This document shows positions 1,404 through 33,309 of a stretch of 64,000 nucleotides of DNA, one piece after another. Within the stretch, counting starts at the first letter, position 1. Every line of letters starts with the position of its first letter. Under the pieces are notes generated by a model. The model was not told the origin of the DNA, did no database searches, and saw only the letters and a program-made list of their open reading frames with translations. A program made the translations under genes and the position numbers. The stretch covers positions 2,290,369 through 2,354,368 of the forward strand of contig JAWPML010000001.1 in the NCBI GenBank assembly GCA_033344915.1, read 5' to 3'. The stretch comes from Acidimicrobiales bacterium (GTDB taxonomy: Bacteria; Actinomycetota; Acidimicrobiia; Acidimicrobiales; Aldehydirespiratoraceae).

Positions 1404-3538
1404 CCCTTCATCAGGAACTCGGCCTCGTCGTCACCGAGCAGCAGGGCGATCTCGTCGGCCAGGGCGGGGTGCGCCTCGAGCTCGGGGTCGCCGTCGATGA
1501 TCTCGACCGCGACCTCCCGTGCCGTCGCGACCCACTCCTTGTCCCGCCGCAGCGACGCGAGGCGCAGGTCGTTGCGGCCCTTCTGGCGCTCACCCATGAT
1601 CGTGCCCTCGCCCCGCAGTTCGAGATCCACCTCGGCCAGCTCGAAGCCGTCGGTACTGTCCACCAGGGCCTGGATGCGCGACTCGCCGTCCGTCGTCGTC
1701 GGTTCGCCCACCAGGAAACACCGGCTCGCGTGCTCGCCGCGCCCCACGCGGCCGCGCAGCTGGTGGAGCTGGGCGATGCCGAACCGGTCGGCGTCCAGCA
1801 CGACCATCACGGTGGCATTCGGCACGTCCACCCCGACTTCGATGACCGTCGTCGCCACGAGGACCTGCACATCGCCGGCCCGGAAGCGTTCCATCACCGA
1901 CTGCTTGTCGTCGCTCGGCATCTGGCCGTGGAGGAGGGCGAGGGACAGTCCGTGGAGGTGCCCGCCCTCGAGTTCCTCGAACGTCTCCGTGGCGGAACGG
2001 ACGTCGAGCGCCTCGGACTCGTCGATCAGCGGACACACGACATAGGCCTGACGGCCGGCCGCGACCGCGTCACGCACGGCGGCCCACACGGCTTCCTCCT
2101 CGTCGGGCGTCGGCGCGGCTTCCGTCACGATCGGGGTTCGACCCGGCGGGAGTTCGTCGAGGACGCTGACGTCGAGGTCGCCGTAGACGGTCATCGCCGC
2201 GGTGCGCGGGATCGGCGTCGCGGTCATGACGAGCACGTCGGGCGCGGCGCCGGCATCGCCCTTGTCGCGCAACGCCGCACGCTGCTCGACCCCGAACCGG
2301 TGCTGCTCGTCGATCACGACCACGCCGAGCGAGGCGTACTCCACCTTGTCCTGGATGAGGGCATGGGTGCCGATCAGGAGATCGACCTTCCCGGTGATGA
2401 GGTCGGCGAGGATCCGGCGGCGGTCCGCGGCGCCGACCCGGTTCGTGAGGAGCTCCACCCGCAGCGGACGATCACCCATGAGCGTCGTCGGGTCCGGCAC
2501 GGAGAGGTCGCCGAGCATCGCGGTCACGCCGAGATGATGCTGCTCCGCCAGGACCTCGGTCGGCGCCATGAACGCGCCCTGGTGTCCCCCCTGGACCGCC
2601 GCCAACAGGGCGGTGACCGCGACGAGCGTCTTACCCGAACCGACGTCACCCTGCAGCAGTCGATGCATCGGTCGGGCCAGGGCCAGGTCCGCGCCGATCT
2701 CGGCGATCGCCCGCTCCTGGGCGTCGGTGAGGGGGAACGGCAGGCGCCCGTGGAAGCGGTCGACGAGTTCGCCGGTGACGCTGTGGGCGATGCCCGCGGT
2801 CTCGCGCTCGATCCGACGCTTGCGGCGCACGAGCTCCAGCTGCACCCGCAGCAGCTCGTCGAACACGAGCCGGCGACGGGCCTCGTCCTTCTCCGCCATG
2901 GTCTCCGGCGCATGGATGCCCCACAGCGCGGCTTCCCTCGTCACGAAGTCGAAGCGGTCCAGCACCGACTCCGGCACGGGATCGAGCAGGCCCCGCGGCG
3001 CGCAGCGGCGCAGTGCCTCGGCGACGAAACGGCCGAGGTCCGCCGTCATGAGGCCGGCCTTCTCGGACTGGGGGTACACGGGGATGATGCGGCCCGTCTG
3101 GTCCCCCATGAGATCCACCACGGGACTCCCCATCTGCGGCGTGCCCCGGTACACCTCGTACTTGCCGTGGACGAGCAGCTGCATGCCGGGCTTCAGCTGC
3201 TTCTCGCGCCAGCGCTGGTTGAAGAACGCGAGCGTGACCTTTCCGGTGCCGTCGCCGATCACGACGTTGGTGAGCGTGCGCCGGCCCCGGAGCTGGCGGG
3301 TGCTCGCGCTGCGGACCTCGGCGAGCACGGTGGCCTCGTCGCCGGGGACGAGTTCCCCGATCCGGGCCTGGCGGGTGCGGTCGAGGTAGCGGCGCGGATA
3401 GTGCTGGAGCAGATCGAGGACCGTGGAGACGTCGACGGCCGCGAGGCTGGAACCGCGCTTCTCGCCCACGCCCTTCAGATCCGTGACCGGCCGCCCGGCC
3501 AGATCCCGGAACGTGAGCGGCGGATCTCCGTCCGGCAC
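1400..3538 (-). CDS. recG: ATP-dependent DNA helicase RecG
   Basis: RecG is the monomeric double-strand translocase that remodels stalled forks and Holliday junctions. The 712-residue product has the N-terminal wedge/OB region (LKGVGEKRGSSL, then HYPRRYLDRT), Walker A GDVGSGKT at about 297-304, the DEQH box in VVIDEQHRFGVEQR near 409, TATPIPRT, and C-terminal helicase motifs LHGQM and VGRG. I chose the GTG at 3538, five bases after the fakA stop; the much longer open frame upstream is an artefact running antisense-like through fakA. The length is normal for RecG. The fakA-recG order is typical of Gram-positive bacteria and suggests co-transcription. Confidence 0.96.
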   Translation of the reverse strand: MPDGDPPLTFRDLAGRPVTDLKGVGEKRGSSLAAVDVSTVLDLLQHYPRRYLDRTRQARIGELVPGDEATVLAEVRSASTRQLRGRRTLTNVVIGDGTGKVTLAFFNQRWREKQLKPGMQLLVHGKYEVYRGTPQMGSPVVDLMGDQTGRIIPVYPQSEKAGLMTADLGRFVAEALRRCAPRGLLDPVPESVLDRFDFVTREAALWGIHAPETMAEKDEARRRLVFDELLRVQLELVRRKRRIERETAGIAHSVTGELVDRFHGRLPFPLTDAQERAIAEIGADLALARPMHRLLQGDVGSGKTLVAVTALLAAVQGGHQGAFMAPTEVLAEQHHLGVTAMLGDLSVPDPTTLMGDRPLRVELLTNRVGAADRRRILADLITGKVDLLIGTHALIQDKVEYASLGVVVIDEQHRFGVEQRAALRDKGDAGAAPDVLVMTATPIPRTAAMTVYGDLDVSVLDELPPGRTPIVTEAAPTPDEEEAVWAAVRDAVAAGRQAYVVCPLIDESEALDVRSATETFEELEGGHLHGLSLALLHGQMPSDDKQSVMERFRAGDVQVLVATTVIEVGVDVPNATVMVVLDADRFGIAQLHQLRGRVGRGEHASRCFLVGEPTTTDGESRIQALVDSTDGFELAEVDLELRGEGTIMGERQKGRNDLRLASLRRDKEWVATAREVAVEIIDGDPELEAHPALADEIALLLGDDEAEFLMKG

Positions 3539-29965: not shown

Positions 29966-29981
29966 CCGTTCAGGCGAACGG
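29966..29981. terminator. bidirectional hairpin between kgd and the membrane-protein gene
   Basis: CCGTTC-AGGC-GAACGG is a perfect 6-bp stem with a 4-base loop, five bases after the kgd TGA and overlapping the opposing gene's stop. It lacks a T-tract. Confidence 0.4.
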
Positions 29982-30686
29982 AATGGTCGCTGCGAGAGCG
30001 AGAGCCCAGCTCATCAACGAGCCGATCAGCACGTATTCGGTGACCGCGTGGACGTCGACGTCATCGTGGCTGCGTAGCTCCGGGTAGCGCAGGAGCGACT
30101 TCGCCGTGACCACCAGGGCGGCCGTGGTCGGCTGCCCGGCGAGGACGAGCCCGACGATCAGGAGGCGTTCGAGCGGACCGATCACCCGACCGCCGCGGAT
30201 GCGCGTCGTCGGCGGGTCGCCGTCGATGACGACATCGAGCACGACCCGCACGATCGCGTTCGCGGTGGCGACCATCACCACCCCGACACCGAGGACGAGC
30301 AGGACCTCCGCAGCCGGTGTCTCCCGGACCAGGTCGATGCGGGACTCGTCGAGGAAATCGCCCCAGCGGCCGTTGTGGCCCGAGAAGTGCAGCGTGGAGA
30401 TGACGGCCGCCGCACCGATCCCACCGCCCAGCGTGGCCAGCTGGAGCTGAGGGGCCGTGAACCCGACGCGGACCAGCTGCCAGGCCGACGCGACGATGGC
30501 GACGACGACGATCGTCACGACGGCGTCCTGGCCTCGACCGTCGTTGCCCAGCACCCCGACCACGCCGACGAGGAGGCTGACGCCGATCGCCAGCACGGCC
30601 CGATTGCGCGACGAGGGCATACCGGCGAGGCCGTGGGTCAGGTCGCCGAAGCCGATGGCGAGCAGGACGATGGCGAGCGCGGTCAT
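29970..30686 (-). CDS. DUF3307-like integral membrane protein, partner of SatD-like regulator
   Basis: The 238-residue protein is mostly hydrophobic with about seven helices. The end reads ERLLIVGLVLAGQPTTAALVVTAKSLLRYPEL and then AVTEYVLIGSLMSWALAL, which resembles the C-terminus of DUF3307-type proteins (a helix, a lysine/serine-arginine loop, then an EYxLIGTLxS motif). It overlaps the satD-like gene by four bases (ATGA). SatD and DUF3307 proteins are often neighbours; the biochemical role of the pair is not known to me. Confidence 0.75.
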   Translation of the reverse strand: MTALAIVLLAIGFGDLTHGLAGMPSSRNRAVLAIGVSLLVGVVGVLGNDGRGQDAVVTIVVVAIVASAWQLVRVGFTAPQLQLATLGGGIGAAAVISTLHFSGHNGRWGDFLDESRIDLVRETPAAEVLLVLGVGVVMVATANAIVRVVLDVVIDGDPPTTRIRGGRVIGPLERLLIVGLVLAGQPTTAALVVTAKSLLRYPELRSHDDVDVHAVTEYVLIGSLMSWALALAATIPFA

Positions 30687-31384
30687 GACGGACTGTGTAG
30701 CGCGTCGACGGCGGCGGCGAGGGCGCGGAGATTGTTCCGACGACGCCGTTGGGACACACCGCTCGCACTGATCCCCACCTCGGCGGCGATCTCGTCGGTC
30801 GGCCGACCCTCCAGATCACCGAGCAGGATGCGGGCCTCGACCCGGTCGAGTCCGGCGAGCGCGTGGTCGAGCAGGATGAGGTGGCTGCGAACGAGATCGA
30901 CGGATCGGGCATCGAGCGGCCGCGGCGGCGGGAGCCCGCCAACCCCGTCCGTCGACGACGACACCGGGTCGGCGTAGGCGACGGCGAGGCGGCCCTCCCA
31001 TCGGACCGTCCCGTCGGACAGCCGTTCGAGTGCGGCGCGGGCCGCCCACCAGGCCGGTCCGTCCTGGCCGAACGGCGTACGGGCCGGGTCGTGGATCTCA
31101 ATGCTTCCCCAACCGATGGACGCACGGACGTCCACCATGCCGATCAGCTCGAGCCGCAAGCGCGCGACAGCCGCGATCGCATCCATGACCCCCGCATAGG
31201 TGGCCTGGAGTTCGTCTCCCACCGTCGCCGTGAGTGGGTCGAGGCCCGGCGCAGCGGCGTTCGCCCGATCCGCCGCCGTCTGCACCGCCCGCTGGAGCGC
31301 GGCGCGATCCGGGTGATCCCGCGAGCCGACGACATCGACGAGGACGGCGGCATAGCCGCGGTGCGGTTCCTCCACAGAGTCCAT
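30683..31384 (-). CDS. SatD-like protein: cyclase-fold-like N-terminus plus helix-turn-helix
   Basis: The 233-residue protein opens YAAVLVDVVGSRDHPDRAALQ, continues LTATVGDELQATYAGVMDAI and VRASIGWGSIEI, and ends with a region-4-like helix-turn-helix (PTDEIAAEVGISASGVSQRRRR, about 192-213). The first three elements resemble the palm fold of class III nucleotide cyclases (LfaDivgST, GDxxxAxF, vRiGih), with both metal-binding aspartates in the expected places. Catalysis is unproven. Three evenly spaced palindromes lie immediately upstream, the first inside its promoter, so autoregulation is likely. It is coupled to the DUF3307-like gene. Confidence 0.8.
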   Translation of the reverse strand: MDSVEEPHRGYAAVLVDVVGSRDHPDRAALQRAVQTAADRANAAAPGLDPLTATVGDELQATYAGVMDAIAAVARLRLELIGMVDVRASIGWGSIEIHDPARTPFGQDGPAWWAARAALERLSDGTVRWEGRLAVAYADPVSSSTDGVGGLPPPRPLDARSVDLVRSHLILLDHALAGLDRVEARILLGDLEGRPTDEIAAEVGISASGVSQRRRRNNLRALAAAVDALHSPS

Positions 31385-31390
31385 GCGATC

Positions 31391-31418
31391 ACTATACTGA
31401 CGACTTCCGTCAGATCAA
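31391..31418 (-). promoter_or_regulatory. satD-like gene promoter
   Basis: Reading the minus strand, TTGATC (31418-31413), a 16-base spacer and TATAGT (31396-31391) precede the ATG at 31384 by six bases. The spacer is almost entirely the palindrome CTGACG-N5-CGTCAG. The transcript would be leaderless. A repressor bound there would block polymerase. Confidence 0.7.
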
Positions 31419-31468
31419 TAGAGACTGACGATATTCGTCAGTTCAATACACGATGACGCATGTCGTCA
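31397..31468. promoter_or_regulatory. array of three palindromic operators, 28-bp period
   Basis: Palindromes at 31397-31413 (CTGACGACTTCCGTCAG), 31424-31442 (ACTGACGATATTCGTCAGT) and 31454-31468 (TGACGCATGTCGTCA) share TGACG-N5-CGTCA half-sites. Their centres are 31405, 31433 and 31461, exactly 28 bases apart. The array fills the gap between the HAD stop and the satD-like start. A helically phased cooperative binding site is likely; the SatD-like protein is the obvious candidate binder. Confidence 0.75.
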
Positions 31469-31477
31469 GGTGATGGC

Positions 31478-32113
31478 TCACCGGAGCGGGATCCCGACGA
31501 CGGCTTCCAGCTCTGCGAGCGCAACCGCCGGGTCCATCACCTTGATCGTGGTCATGCCCATCGCCCTCGCCGGCTTGAGGTTGACCCCCAGATCGTCGAG
31601 GAAGACGCACGCGTCGGGTTCGACGCCCAGCCGCTCGCAGGCGATCTCGTAGAAGCGGGGCTCGGGCTTGCGCACGCCGACCACGCTCGACTCCACGACC
31701 TCGTCGAACAACGCCATGATCGTTGCCATCTCGTGCGCTCGATCCTCGGCCGGGCCGCCGGGTGACGGGTCGCGGAAGTTGTTCGTGAGGCACGCCGTCT
31801 TGAACCGCTCACCGCAGCGGCGAAGTGCCTCGACCATCTCCGGCCGGACGTGGCCGCGCAGCGAGTCGAGGACCCGGCGCGCATCGACCTCGTGGCCGAG
31901 CGCTCGCGCCTCCCGTTCGAACACCTCCACGAACCCGGCCGGGTCCAGATCGCCGCGCTCGAACCGGGCCCACGCGTTGTCGTCCGGATTCGTGGCGTTG
32001 ATCGTGCGGATCGTGTCCTTTGCCAGCCCGACCTCGGCCTCGTAGACGTTGAAGGCGTCGAACGGGCTGGACAGGATGACGCCGCCGAAATCGAAGAGAA
32101 CTGCCGAGATCAC
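31478..32113 (-). CDS. HAD-superfamily (subfamily IA) hydrolase
   Basis: The 211-residue protein has motif I VLFDFGGVI (usual DxDGV is DFGG here, as in acyl-CoA-dehydrogenase-linked and epoxide-hydrolase-N-terminal phosphatases), motif II TACLTNNFRDP (S/T), motif III lysine in GVRKPEPRFYEIACERLG and motif IV VFLDDLGVNLKPARAMG. The missing second aspartate of DxD is a known variation in this subgroup and may limit phosphatase activity. GTG 32113 follows TAGGGT by six bases. Divergent from the NYN-S1 gene. Confidence 0.88.
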   Translation of the reverse strand: MISAVLFDFGGVILSSPFDAFNVYEAEVGLAKDTIRTINATNPDDNAWARFERGDLDPAGFVEVFEREARALGHEVDARRVLDSLRGHVRPEMVEALRRCGERFKTACLTNNFRDPSPGGPAEDRAHEMATIMALFDEVVESSVVGVRKPEPRFYEIACERLGVEPDACVFLDDLGVNLKPARAMGMTTIKVMDPAVALAELEAVVGIPLR

Positions 32114-32148: not shown

Positions 32149-33309
32149 ATGTCGAAACGGGCCGCCACCAACTCCCACGCCGTGATCGATGGGTCGAACC
32201 TCGCCACGGAGGGCCGCAAGGAACCAAGCCTCGCGCAGCTGAAGGAGGCCGTCGCGGCGATCCGCGACGAGTACGACTTCACCCACGTGACGGTGATCGT
32301 CGATGCGACGTTCGAGCATCGCGTGGCGAAGTCCGAGACCAAGGCGGCCCGCAAGGCCATCGACGACAACGAGATCCTCACGCCACCGGCCGGGGTCATC
32401 GGCCGCGGCGACACGTTCATCCTCGAGGTCGCCGATCGCGCCGACGCCGTGGTGTTCTCGAACGACTCGTTCCAGGAGTTCCACGGCACCTTCGACTGGC
32501 TCTTCGACGAGGGGCGTCTCGTCGGCGGCAAGCCGGTGCCGGGGGTCGGCTGGATCTATGTGCCCCGCTCCCCCGTCCGAGGTCCGGTGAGTCGCCGGGC
32601 CACGTCGGAACGACGGCGCAAGAAAGCCGACGACGCCCCGAAGCCGGCGGCGAAGTCCGCCAAGAAGTCCACCCGGAAGGAAGCCGAGAAGTCCTCCCGG
32701 TCGACCTCGCGATCGTCGAAGTCGTCCCAGCCAGCACCGTCGTCTCGACGGGGGAAGTCCTCCGCACCGGCCGATTCGGCTGACGGCGCCAACGCGCCGG
32801 ACGCGTGGAAGACCTTCACCAACGACTACCCGATCGGCACGACCGTGGCCGTGACGGTCGACCGCTTCTCGTCGCACGGCGCCTACGGCTCGGTCGACGA
32901 CGTGGCCATCTATCTCCCCAACCGCCTGCTCGGCGACCCGGCGCCGACCAAGGCCCGTGACGTGCTCGACATCGGCTCGACCGTCGACGTCATCGTCCAC
33001 CGCTTCGACGACGAGCGATTCGGCATCGACGCCGGACTCATCCCGGTTCCCGGCGGTCGGGCGAAGGGATCGTCGAAGCGGCCCGCCCGCAAAGCCACCA
33101 AGCAGGCGACGAAGAAGACGACGAAGAAGAAGGCCGCGACCAAGCGCACGACCAAGAAGACGACGAAGGCGACGACCAAGAAGGTGGCCAAGAAGACGAC
33201 GAAGAAGGCCGCGACCAAGCGCAGCGCCAAGAAGACGACGAAGGCGACCGCGGCGAAGAAGACCGCGCGCCCGGCGAAGAAGGCCGGCACCTCACGCACA
33301 CGCCGCTGA
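32149..33309 (+). CDS. NYN/Zc3h12a-like RNase domain plus S1-like domain plus lysine-rich tail
   Basis: The 386-residue protein has three parts. Residues about 8-145 look like a NYN/Zc3h12a PIN-fold RNase: HAVIDGSNLA, HVTVIVDATFEHR, AVVFSNDSFQEFHGTFDWLF, with acidic residues expected for metal binding. Residues about 225-300 resemble an S1-like OB fold (YPIGTTVAVTVDRFSSHGAYGSVD). The last about 80 residues are histone-H1-like KKTTKK/ATKR repeats. The middle linker is Lys/Ser-rich. A nucleic-acid-associated nuclease role is inferred. TTGACT lies seven bases before the ATG. It is followed 27 bases later by ettA. Confidence 0.8.
   Translation: MSKRAATNSHAVIDGSNLATEGRKEPSLAQLKEAVAAIRDEYDFTHVTVIVDATFEHRVAKSETKAARKAIDDNEILTPPAGVIGRGDTFILEVADRADAVVFSNDSFQEFHGTFDWLFDEGRLVGGKPVPGVGWIYVPRSPVRGPVSRRATSERRRKKADDAPKPAAKSAKKSTRKEAEKSSRSTSRSSKSSQPAPSSRRGKSSAPADSADGANAPDAWKTFTNDYPIGTTVAVTVDRFSSHGAYGSVDDVAIYLPNRLLGDPAPTKARDVLDIGSTVDVIVHRFDDERFGIDAGLIPVPGGRAKGSSKRPARKATKQATKKTTKKKAATKRTTKKTTKATTKKVAKKTTKKAATKRSAKKTTKATAAKKTARPAKKAGTSRTRR
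33070..33306 (+). repeat. low-complexity lysine-codon repeats
   Basis: AAGAAGACGACGAAG-type codons repeat imperfectly over about 230 bases and encode the H1-like tail. Compositionally extreme against the surrounding sequence. Confidence 0.8.

Follow-up and report, generated by a model that had tools for sequence, protein, structure and literature searches.

The SatD family (PF16264) takes its name from satD, a gene in the sat operon of Streptococcus mutans. It has been labeled 'secretion and acid tolerance' in a report whose available portion mentions no operator, palm fold or regulation for it (PMC10326533). In the literature searched for SatD, PF16264, DUF3307 and 28-bp operators we found no described operator for SatD, in agreement with an earlier note on the DNA studied here, which knew of none for the family.

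Among better described systems, ParA of plasmid F, an ATPase unrelated to SatD, appears to be the closest analogue in behavior, not a relative. In the available part of the source, ParA of the F-type plasmid partition operon binds cooperatively as three dimers over about 85 bp of its own promoter and is autoregulated, and it resembles the make-up of SatD in joining a nucleotide-binding protein to a helix-turn-helix (HTH), which is winged in ParA, unlike in SatD (PMC8465637). The distance of 28 bp also occurs there as the gap between the halves of one inverted repeat, with the repeats overlapping, whereas in SatD it is the center-to-center step of separate short palindromes (PMC8465637).

Judged by its structural model, SatD shares with class III nucleotidyl cyclases and GGDEF diguanylate cyclases the palm fold, an aspartate in strand 1 and a GD in the hairpin. 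It differs from them in having GPxWWxAR in the helix that reads VN..AAR in cyclases. Mycobacterial cyclase-LuxR fusions are built differently from SatD. Neither HTH nor LuxR turned up in a word search of the available part of PMC2447327. The Foldseek matches to SatD included 9pd0_C, of mCpol/OptS of the Panoptes defense system (E = 3.2e-3). Panoptes has a palm protein with a membrane protein gene alongside, and SatD carries an extra HTH relative to mCpol. With E values up to 1 considered, PADLOC-DB (2023; the Panoptes papers are from 2025) matched neither the SatD and membrane protein pair studied here nor that of a haloarchaeal locus (L052). SatD and DUF3307 were not mentioned in the available main text of two Panoptes papers (word search), and no link of SatD to defense was found.

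Putative operator array and promoter of satD

We examined a 64-kb stretch of DNA (the window) from a genome of 4.48 Mb; all coordinates are positions in the window. The features of the locus are as follows.

29970..30686, minus strand: membrane protein partner of satD, 238 aa; its start and the satD stop share 4 bp; about 6 hydrophobic segments
30683..31384, minus strand: satD gene, 233 aa; Pfam SatD PF16264 above cutoff
30701..30844, minus strand: C-terminal helix-turn-helix, residues 181–228, sigma region 4-like; Pfam Sigma70_r4_2 at 171–216, pLDDT 88–98 over 181–230
30974..31354, minus strand: predicted palm domain, residues 11–137, in which Asp17 and Asp57 probably bind metal; AlphaFold2 model, Foldseek and VIA matches, conservation
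31391..31396, minus strand: −10-like TATAGT, read by eye, six bases 5′ of the start codon
31398..31412, no strand: putative operator site 1, TGACGACTTCCGTCA; exact match, fills the −35/−10 spacer
31413..31418, minus strand: −35-like TTGATC, read by eye
31426..31440, no strand: putative operator site 2, TGACGATATTCGTCA; exact match, 28 bp from site 1
31454..31468, no strand: putative operator site 3, TGACGCATGTCGTCA; exact match, 28 bp from site 2
31478..32113, minus strand: HAD hydrolase gene upstream (Pfam); a neighbor, outside the proposed switch

Sequence matching confirmed the three palindromes of the earlier note, all of them exact: TGACG-N5-CGTCA sites centered at 31405, 31433 and 31461, with both steps 28 bp. 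They occupy the 93-bp gap between the HAD hydrolase gene and satD, both on the minus strand. Read by eye along that strand, TTGATC and TATAGT stand 16 bp apart with site 1 filling the space between them, and the ATG at 31384 comes six bases after TATAGT. This reading agrees with the earlier placement of site 1 between TTGATC and TATAGT, and from this putative promoter the satD message is probably leaderless, as had been proposed.

With one mismatch allowed, the motif matched 13 times in the window against 6.2 expected, a number reached by 1 of 100 shuffles. Enrichment of the motif alone is only mild in the window, and what is rare is the presence of three exact copies within 71 bp, so the exact triple and the orthologues were used as evidence instead. 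Across the 4.48-Mb genome there are 17 exact sites, 3 of them in the array, and a search allowing up to 3 mismatches per pair found no second pair of sites at the 28-bp step elsewhere in that genome.

Four relatives in reference genomes are 58, 53, 52 and 35% identical to the SatD of the window, comprising three orthologues at 52–58% (L006, L007 and L008) and a fourth relative at 35% (L009). Inspection of the sequence upstream of the orthologues, the check that the earlier note had suggested, recovered the same sites at the same step in all three; the result that the note had named as refuting its reading, a lack of conserved palindromes at orthologues, was thus not obtained. L006 has three exact TGACG-N5-CGTCA sites at 28 bp, L007 has two exact sites at that step and lacks the third copy, and L008 has three, the middle one with one mismatch. 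In the window and in each orthologue the distance between the start codon and the beginning of the gene-proximal site is 28 bases, and a HAD frame precedes satD in all three orthologues as well (by translation). In L009 the letters are different (GCGCAA..TTGCGC) and the step is 29 bp.

Predicted architecture of SatD

The protein encoded in the window scored 42.5 bits against the PF16264 model (cutoff 29, residues 11–134) and 26.2 bits against Sigma70_r4_2, just above the cutoff of 25.7, and sigma-70 ECF models also matched its HTH below cutoff. An AlphaFold2 model built with five sequences (mean pLDDT 79, pTM 0.79) has the strand and helix order of a palm domain, followed by a helix at 159–177 and four helices at 181–228 containing the HTH. 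The HTH that the earlier note ascribed to the SatD-like product is thus seen both in the above-cutoff Pfam match and in the modeled helices. The top Foldseek matches were GGDEF domains, GTP cyclohydrolase III, nucleotidyl cyclases and Cas10/mCpol palms, with 3 matches at E ≤ 0.001 and the best, to the GGDEF structure 5m3c_A, at E = 2.5e-4; VIA aligned 5mbg (Z 11.5, rmsd 3.9 over 141 residues) and 2qv6_A (Z 11.1, rmsd 2.7 over 117 residues). Pfam cyclase and GGDEF models gave no match to the window protein at E up to 1.

Among 56 aligned members, a set without the 632-aa open frame of L056, Asp17 is kept in 55 and Arg116 in 53, and Gly56-Asp57-Glu58 and Gly109 are present in all 56. We take the positions of Asp17 and Asp57 to be the metal-holding positions of class III cyclases and GGDEF proteins, at which these two residues would bind metal. 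An HTH-like segment is readable by eye in the aligned C-terminal ends, and the Pfam scan for an HTH covered the window protein only. SatD is accordingly best described, on the model, as a predicted fusion of a nucleotidyl-cyclase/GGDEF-type palm with a sigma-4-like HTH.

Spacing of sites across the SatD family

Relatives were collected by several searches. Pfam SatD matches occurred in 18 of 296 genomes of the phylum, in 24 of 60 genomes of genus g211, in 5 of 149 and 59 of 248 genomes of two orders, and in 1 of 17 genomes of the family around G378 (G378 alone), and a profile of five proteins recovered 8 of 395 genomes in the class. A search of the order with the single protein returned only its own genome (1/298), the family and profile searches being more productive. 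No SatD relatives were found by protein searches of a phage collection or in viral contigs (2 of 8 scans). Seven further loci came from records of a plasmid collection (Arthrobacter, Sphingomonas, Agrobacterium, three haloarchaea and Fusobacterium). From the order with 59 matches, loci for 32 are in the set (29 new plus L015, L024 and L025), and the other 27 lie outside the scan.

Upstream regions were scanned blind, by taking at each spacing the top-scoring pair of palindromes whose members also resemble each other. The scan was anchored on the start of the match, which is not a proven start codon, and the anchors of L006–L009 and L049–L055 were placed by hand from the match or the annotation. 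We dropped L005, L023 and L087 (repeat finds of the satD gene of the window), L088 (a duplicate of L009 in protein and upstream sequence), L027 (a partial match below cutoff), L095–L100 (second pieces of genes already counted) and L001–L004, L101 and L102 (pattern matches in the window's own genome). L056 was counted and has no signal.

Among the first 37 loci, scanned at spacings of 18–45, the best spacing was 28 in 31, including L011, L013 and L019, whose scores were not above their own ten shuffles. A second set of 36 loci, scanned at spacings of 15–60 after the first result, gave 28 in 13 and 29 in 3. The final count took in 86 loci including the window at spacings of 15–60, or 57 after dereplication at 70% protein identity, and a spacing of 28 came out best in 45 of the 86 and in 25 of the 57, a spacing of 29 in 5 and 4, respectively. 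In a control region 500–720 bp upstream the corresponding numbers were 0 and 2 of 84, and in a control inside the gene 1 and 2 of 86. Since 24 of the 86 loci come from one genus, so that loci are partly related, we quote counts and controls in place of a binomial figure, which would assume independent loci and an equal chance for every spacing.

Compared with 300 dinucleotide shuffles, the score at 28 reached p < 0.01 in 48 of 86 loci (28 of 57 dereplicated), and the score at 29 did so in 8 of 86 (7 of 57); for 56, a doubled step, the number was 19 of 86. After correction for all spacings, 52 of 86 upstream regions had p < 0.05, with the best spacing at 28 or 29 in 42 and at 56–58 in 6; in the controls 3 of 84 and 3 of 86 regions were significant, all with best spacings other than 28 and 29. 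Two of the hits at 28 are retained in these counts with reservations: that of L089 is doubtful by eye, and that of L059 reflects a 28-bp direct repeat and not operator-like sites. Judged by sequence, a large part of the SatD family follows the spacing rule, with members from both bacteria and archaea.

Sixteen of the 57 dereplicated loci had p ≥ 0.05 at both 28 and 29. Among them are the genes from Fusobacterium and Arthrobacter, together with at least 10 from the order with 59 matches, and the HTH sequence of several (L061, L083 and L085) is of the same kind by eye. Such loci may have a single site, looser sites or other control.

Several features of individual loci were also recorded. The repeat of L059 precedes the operator-like sites of that locus, at roughly 66–150 bp ahead of the HMM match start, and consists of a 28-base unit in two perfect copies and a third imperfect one; arrays could perhaps grow by duplication of their own unit. 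L010, L011 and L013, from family f88 (genomes of 1.0–1.4 Mb, AT-rich in the stretches examined), have a distinct type of SatD and no array scoring above shuffles.

Letters of the sites

The letters of the sites differ from group to group. The window and L006–L008 share TGACG-N5-CGTCA, genus g211 loci have TGAAG-N7-CTTCA, L090 has GTTGTC..GACAAC at 28, another group has TACAACC..GGTTGTA as its operator letters, and sites related to TTAGCCC..GGGCTAA recur at a step of 28 in two alphaproteobacterial loci, those of Sphingomonas (L050, three sites) and Agrobacterium (L051, two sites). A step of 29 was found in L057 and, between long palindromes, in the haloarchaeal L053 and L054, making two of the three haloarchaeal loci; the third, L052, encodes a protein with 94.5% identity to its L053 counterpart, and there 47 scored highest and 29 came next. 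Across the operators of 35 loci the median 5-mer similarity was 0.04. That the step stays constant while the letters drift points to a constraint on the spacing itself.

The position of the sites relative to promoters was read by eye. In L016, L041 and L048 of g211, one palindrome contains a −10-like TATAAT or TATGAT and reaches the start codon, and an additional site falls within the first codons. The second palindrome of the archaeal L054, TACAACCATATATGGTTGTA, has a TATA-like center.

Step and symmetry were also associated. Palindromes were odd-centered in 44 and even-centered in 4 of the significant hits at 28, and even-centered in 6 and odd-centered in 2 of those at 29, a step carried by L009, L052–L054, L057 and L094; the exceptions to this pairing are L012, L017, L050, L051 and L092.

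Membrane partner and neighbors

Of 80 loci, 52 have a frame with at least 2 hydrophobic segments whose start shares 4 bp with the satD stop, and 10 have such a frame at another offset; neither arrangement was seen in 18, including L007 and contigs or frames that end early. Downstream of satD in L008 are the membrane partner and a 2-oxoglutarate dehydrogenase gene, and in L006 the contig ends inside the partner gene. At the partner position of L007 (about 2613–2855, plus strand) there is only an 80-aa frame with no hydrophobic segments, with satD and its operators retained.

The earlier note had spoken of a SatD/DUF3307 pair, and this was borne out in part. The window partner has no match to Pfam DUF3307 (PF11750), which the L052 partner matches with 59.9 bits; its C-terminal part is, in turn, 43% identical over 87 columns to that of this archaeal DUF3307 protein. 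Across 22 partners the C-terminal 80–90 residues (GRxIGxLER..AKSxxRF..EYxLxGSLxS) can be traced by eye all the way from archaeal partners to those of Alphaproteobacteria, in which they form the bulk of the protein. Among seven partners scanned, this module lies outside any above-cutoff Pfam match, and the N-terminal half is variable, being DUF3307 in L052. The structural model of the partner had a pLDDT of 48 and was not used as evidence.

Other genes occur nearby. The product of a plus-strand frame at 32149–33309 combines an NYN ribonuclease domain (Zc3h12a-like) with a stretch weakly resembling S1 (E = 0.043) and a long Lys/Ala-rich tail, and a similar frame lies near satD in L006 and L008. 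On the Agrobacterium plasmid pAt (L051), satD is close to genes annotated as an antitoxin and a nucleotidyltransferase-HEPN protein.

SatD as a candidate autorepressor

We consider it probable, at roughly 0.77, that the array is the operator of an autoregulator, SatD, whose dimers bind cooperatively and repress the operon of satD and its partner. We infer that SatD is the binder because the array sits at satD genes, and cooperativity, repression and a role for a nucleotide are likewise inferred. One SatD dimer would bind each palindrome through the C-terminal HTH, and two or three dimers spaced 28 bp apart (29 in some groups) would touch and so bind cooperatively over the promoter, covering it and repressing satD together with the membrane partner. 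The N-terminal palm would probably act as the dimer and ligand module, and a nucleotide bound or made there could alter the grip on DNA and thereby set the level of the membrane partner.

Several observations are consistent with this proposal. Within a palindrome the half-sites are about one turn apart, at 10 bp for TGACG and 12 bp for TGAAG, a distance that suggests the fit needed by an HTH dimer. As read by eye, some sites cover the −35/−10 region, others a −10 together with the start codon and others a TATA-like stretch, and these placements fit repression. A repeated operator over the gene's own promoter that is kept in relatives, as looked for in an autorepressor, was found save in the 16 dereplicated loci with no signal, which count against the proposal. 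Also set against it is the geometry of the step: with turns of 10.5 bp, 28 bp corresponds to 2.67 turns and three steps to eight, so neighboring dimers would not share one face of the DNA, each being rotated by a third of a circle, and contact between them would require a helical arrangement. The earlier proposal of an operator array for a cooperative oligomer, with probable autorepression by SatD, gains support from a conserved spacing with changing letters.

A regulator other than SatD might bind the array, leaving the satD operon as a mere target. In Mantel tests, operator similarity was correlated with HTH similarity given the palm (partial r 0.15, p = 0.013) and with palm similarity given the HTH (0.24). 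Because the correlation with the palm is no weaker than that with the HTH, the covariation fits co-inheritance and does not single out the HTH, and operators that track the palm as much as the HTH are also what a separate regulator would allow. We nevertheless regard this reading as unlikely, as the array is found at satD genes in two domains of life, an unlinked protein would need changes of specificity in step with the letters, and neighbors vary among annotated records, in which satD is present by selection and a membrane partner usually comes after it. Beyond the window's own genome the array scan covered satD loci only, and other genes there may carry arrays. Less likely again is that SatD is an activator or dual regulator whose array recruits or reshapes RNA polymerase. 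The likeness of its HTH to sigma region 4 (Sigma70_r4_2, with sigma-70 ECF models below cutoff) would suit that role, as would site 1, which fills the spacer in the manner of MerR-type activator sites. These observations are set against a near-normal spacer of 16 bp and against the by-eye positions of the g211 sites over the −10, start codon and first codons and of the L054 site over a TATA-like stretch, which fit exclusion of the polymerase.

That the common spacing reflects shared ancestry alone, without constraint, seems very improbable. Many of the loci are related, with the 24 from a single genus the clearest case, yet the letters are nearly unrelated and below 70% protein identity 28 or 29 is still the best spacing in the 25 and 4 of 57 loci given above. 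We give even less weight to the repeats being a structural or RNA feature, such as hairpins or a mobile repeat, and not protein-binding sites. The palindromes could fold as RNA, and L059 does have a perfect direct repeat of 28 bp upstream of satD; a start at the ATG would, on the other hand, put the array outside the message, the step is absent from both control regions, and the window's own genome holds no second paired array.

Returning to SatD as its own repressor, a bolder version of this idea can be put forward as a doubtful possibility: SatD could be a working nucleotidyl cyclase or nucleotide-oligomer synthase as well as a transcription factor, forming a short helical filament on the promoter with a 28/29-bp step that opens and closes with the nucleotide state of the palm, and its product or the released protein would govern the membrane partner. 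If true, this would be an undescribed one-protein signaling switch common to bacteria and archaea.

The spacing rule goes beyond the original observation of three sites, and by comparison of sequences the regulatory reading is well supported. It provides candidate operators for many SatD genes despite their changing letters, and it raises the structural question of how dimers 2.67 turns apart co-operate and whether a ligand of the palm controls that cooperation. For the little-studied SatD family, the results suggest a testable role in which a nucleotide-related sensor or enzyme would be its own repressor, with the membrane protein as its likely output.
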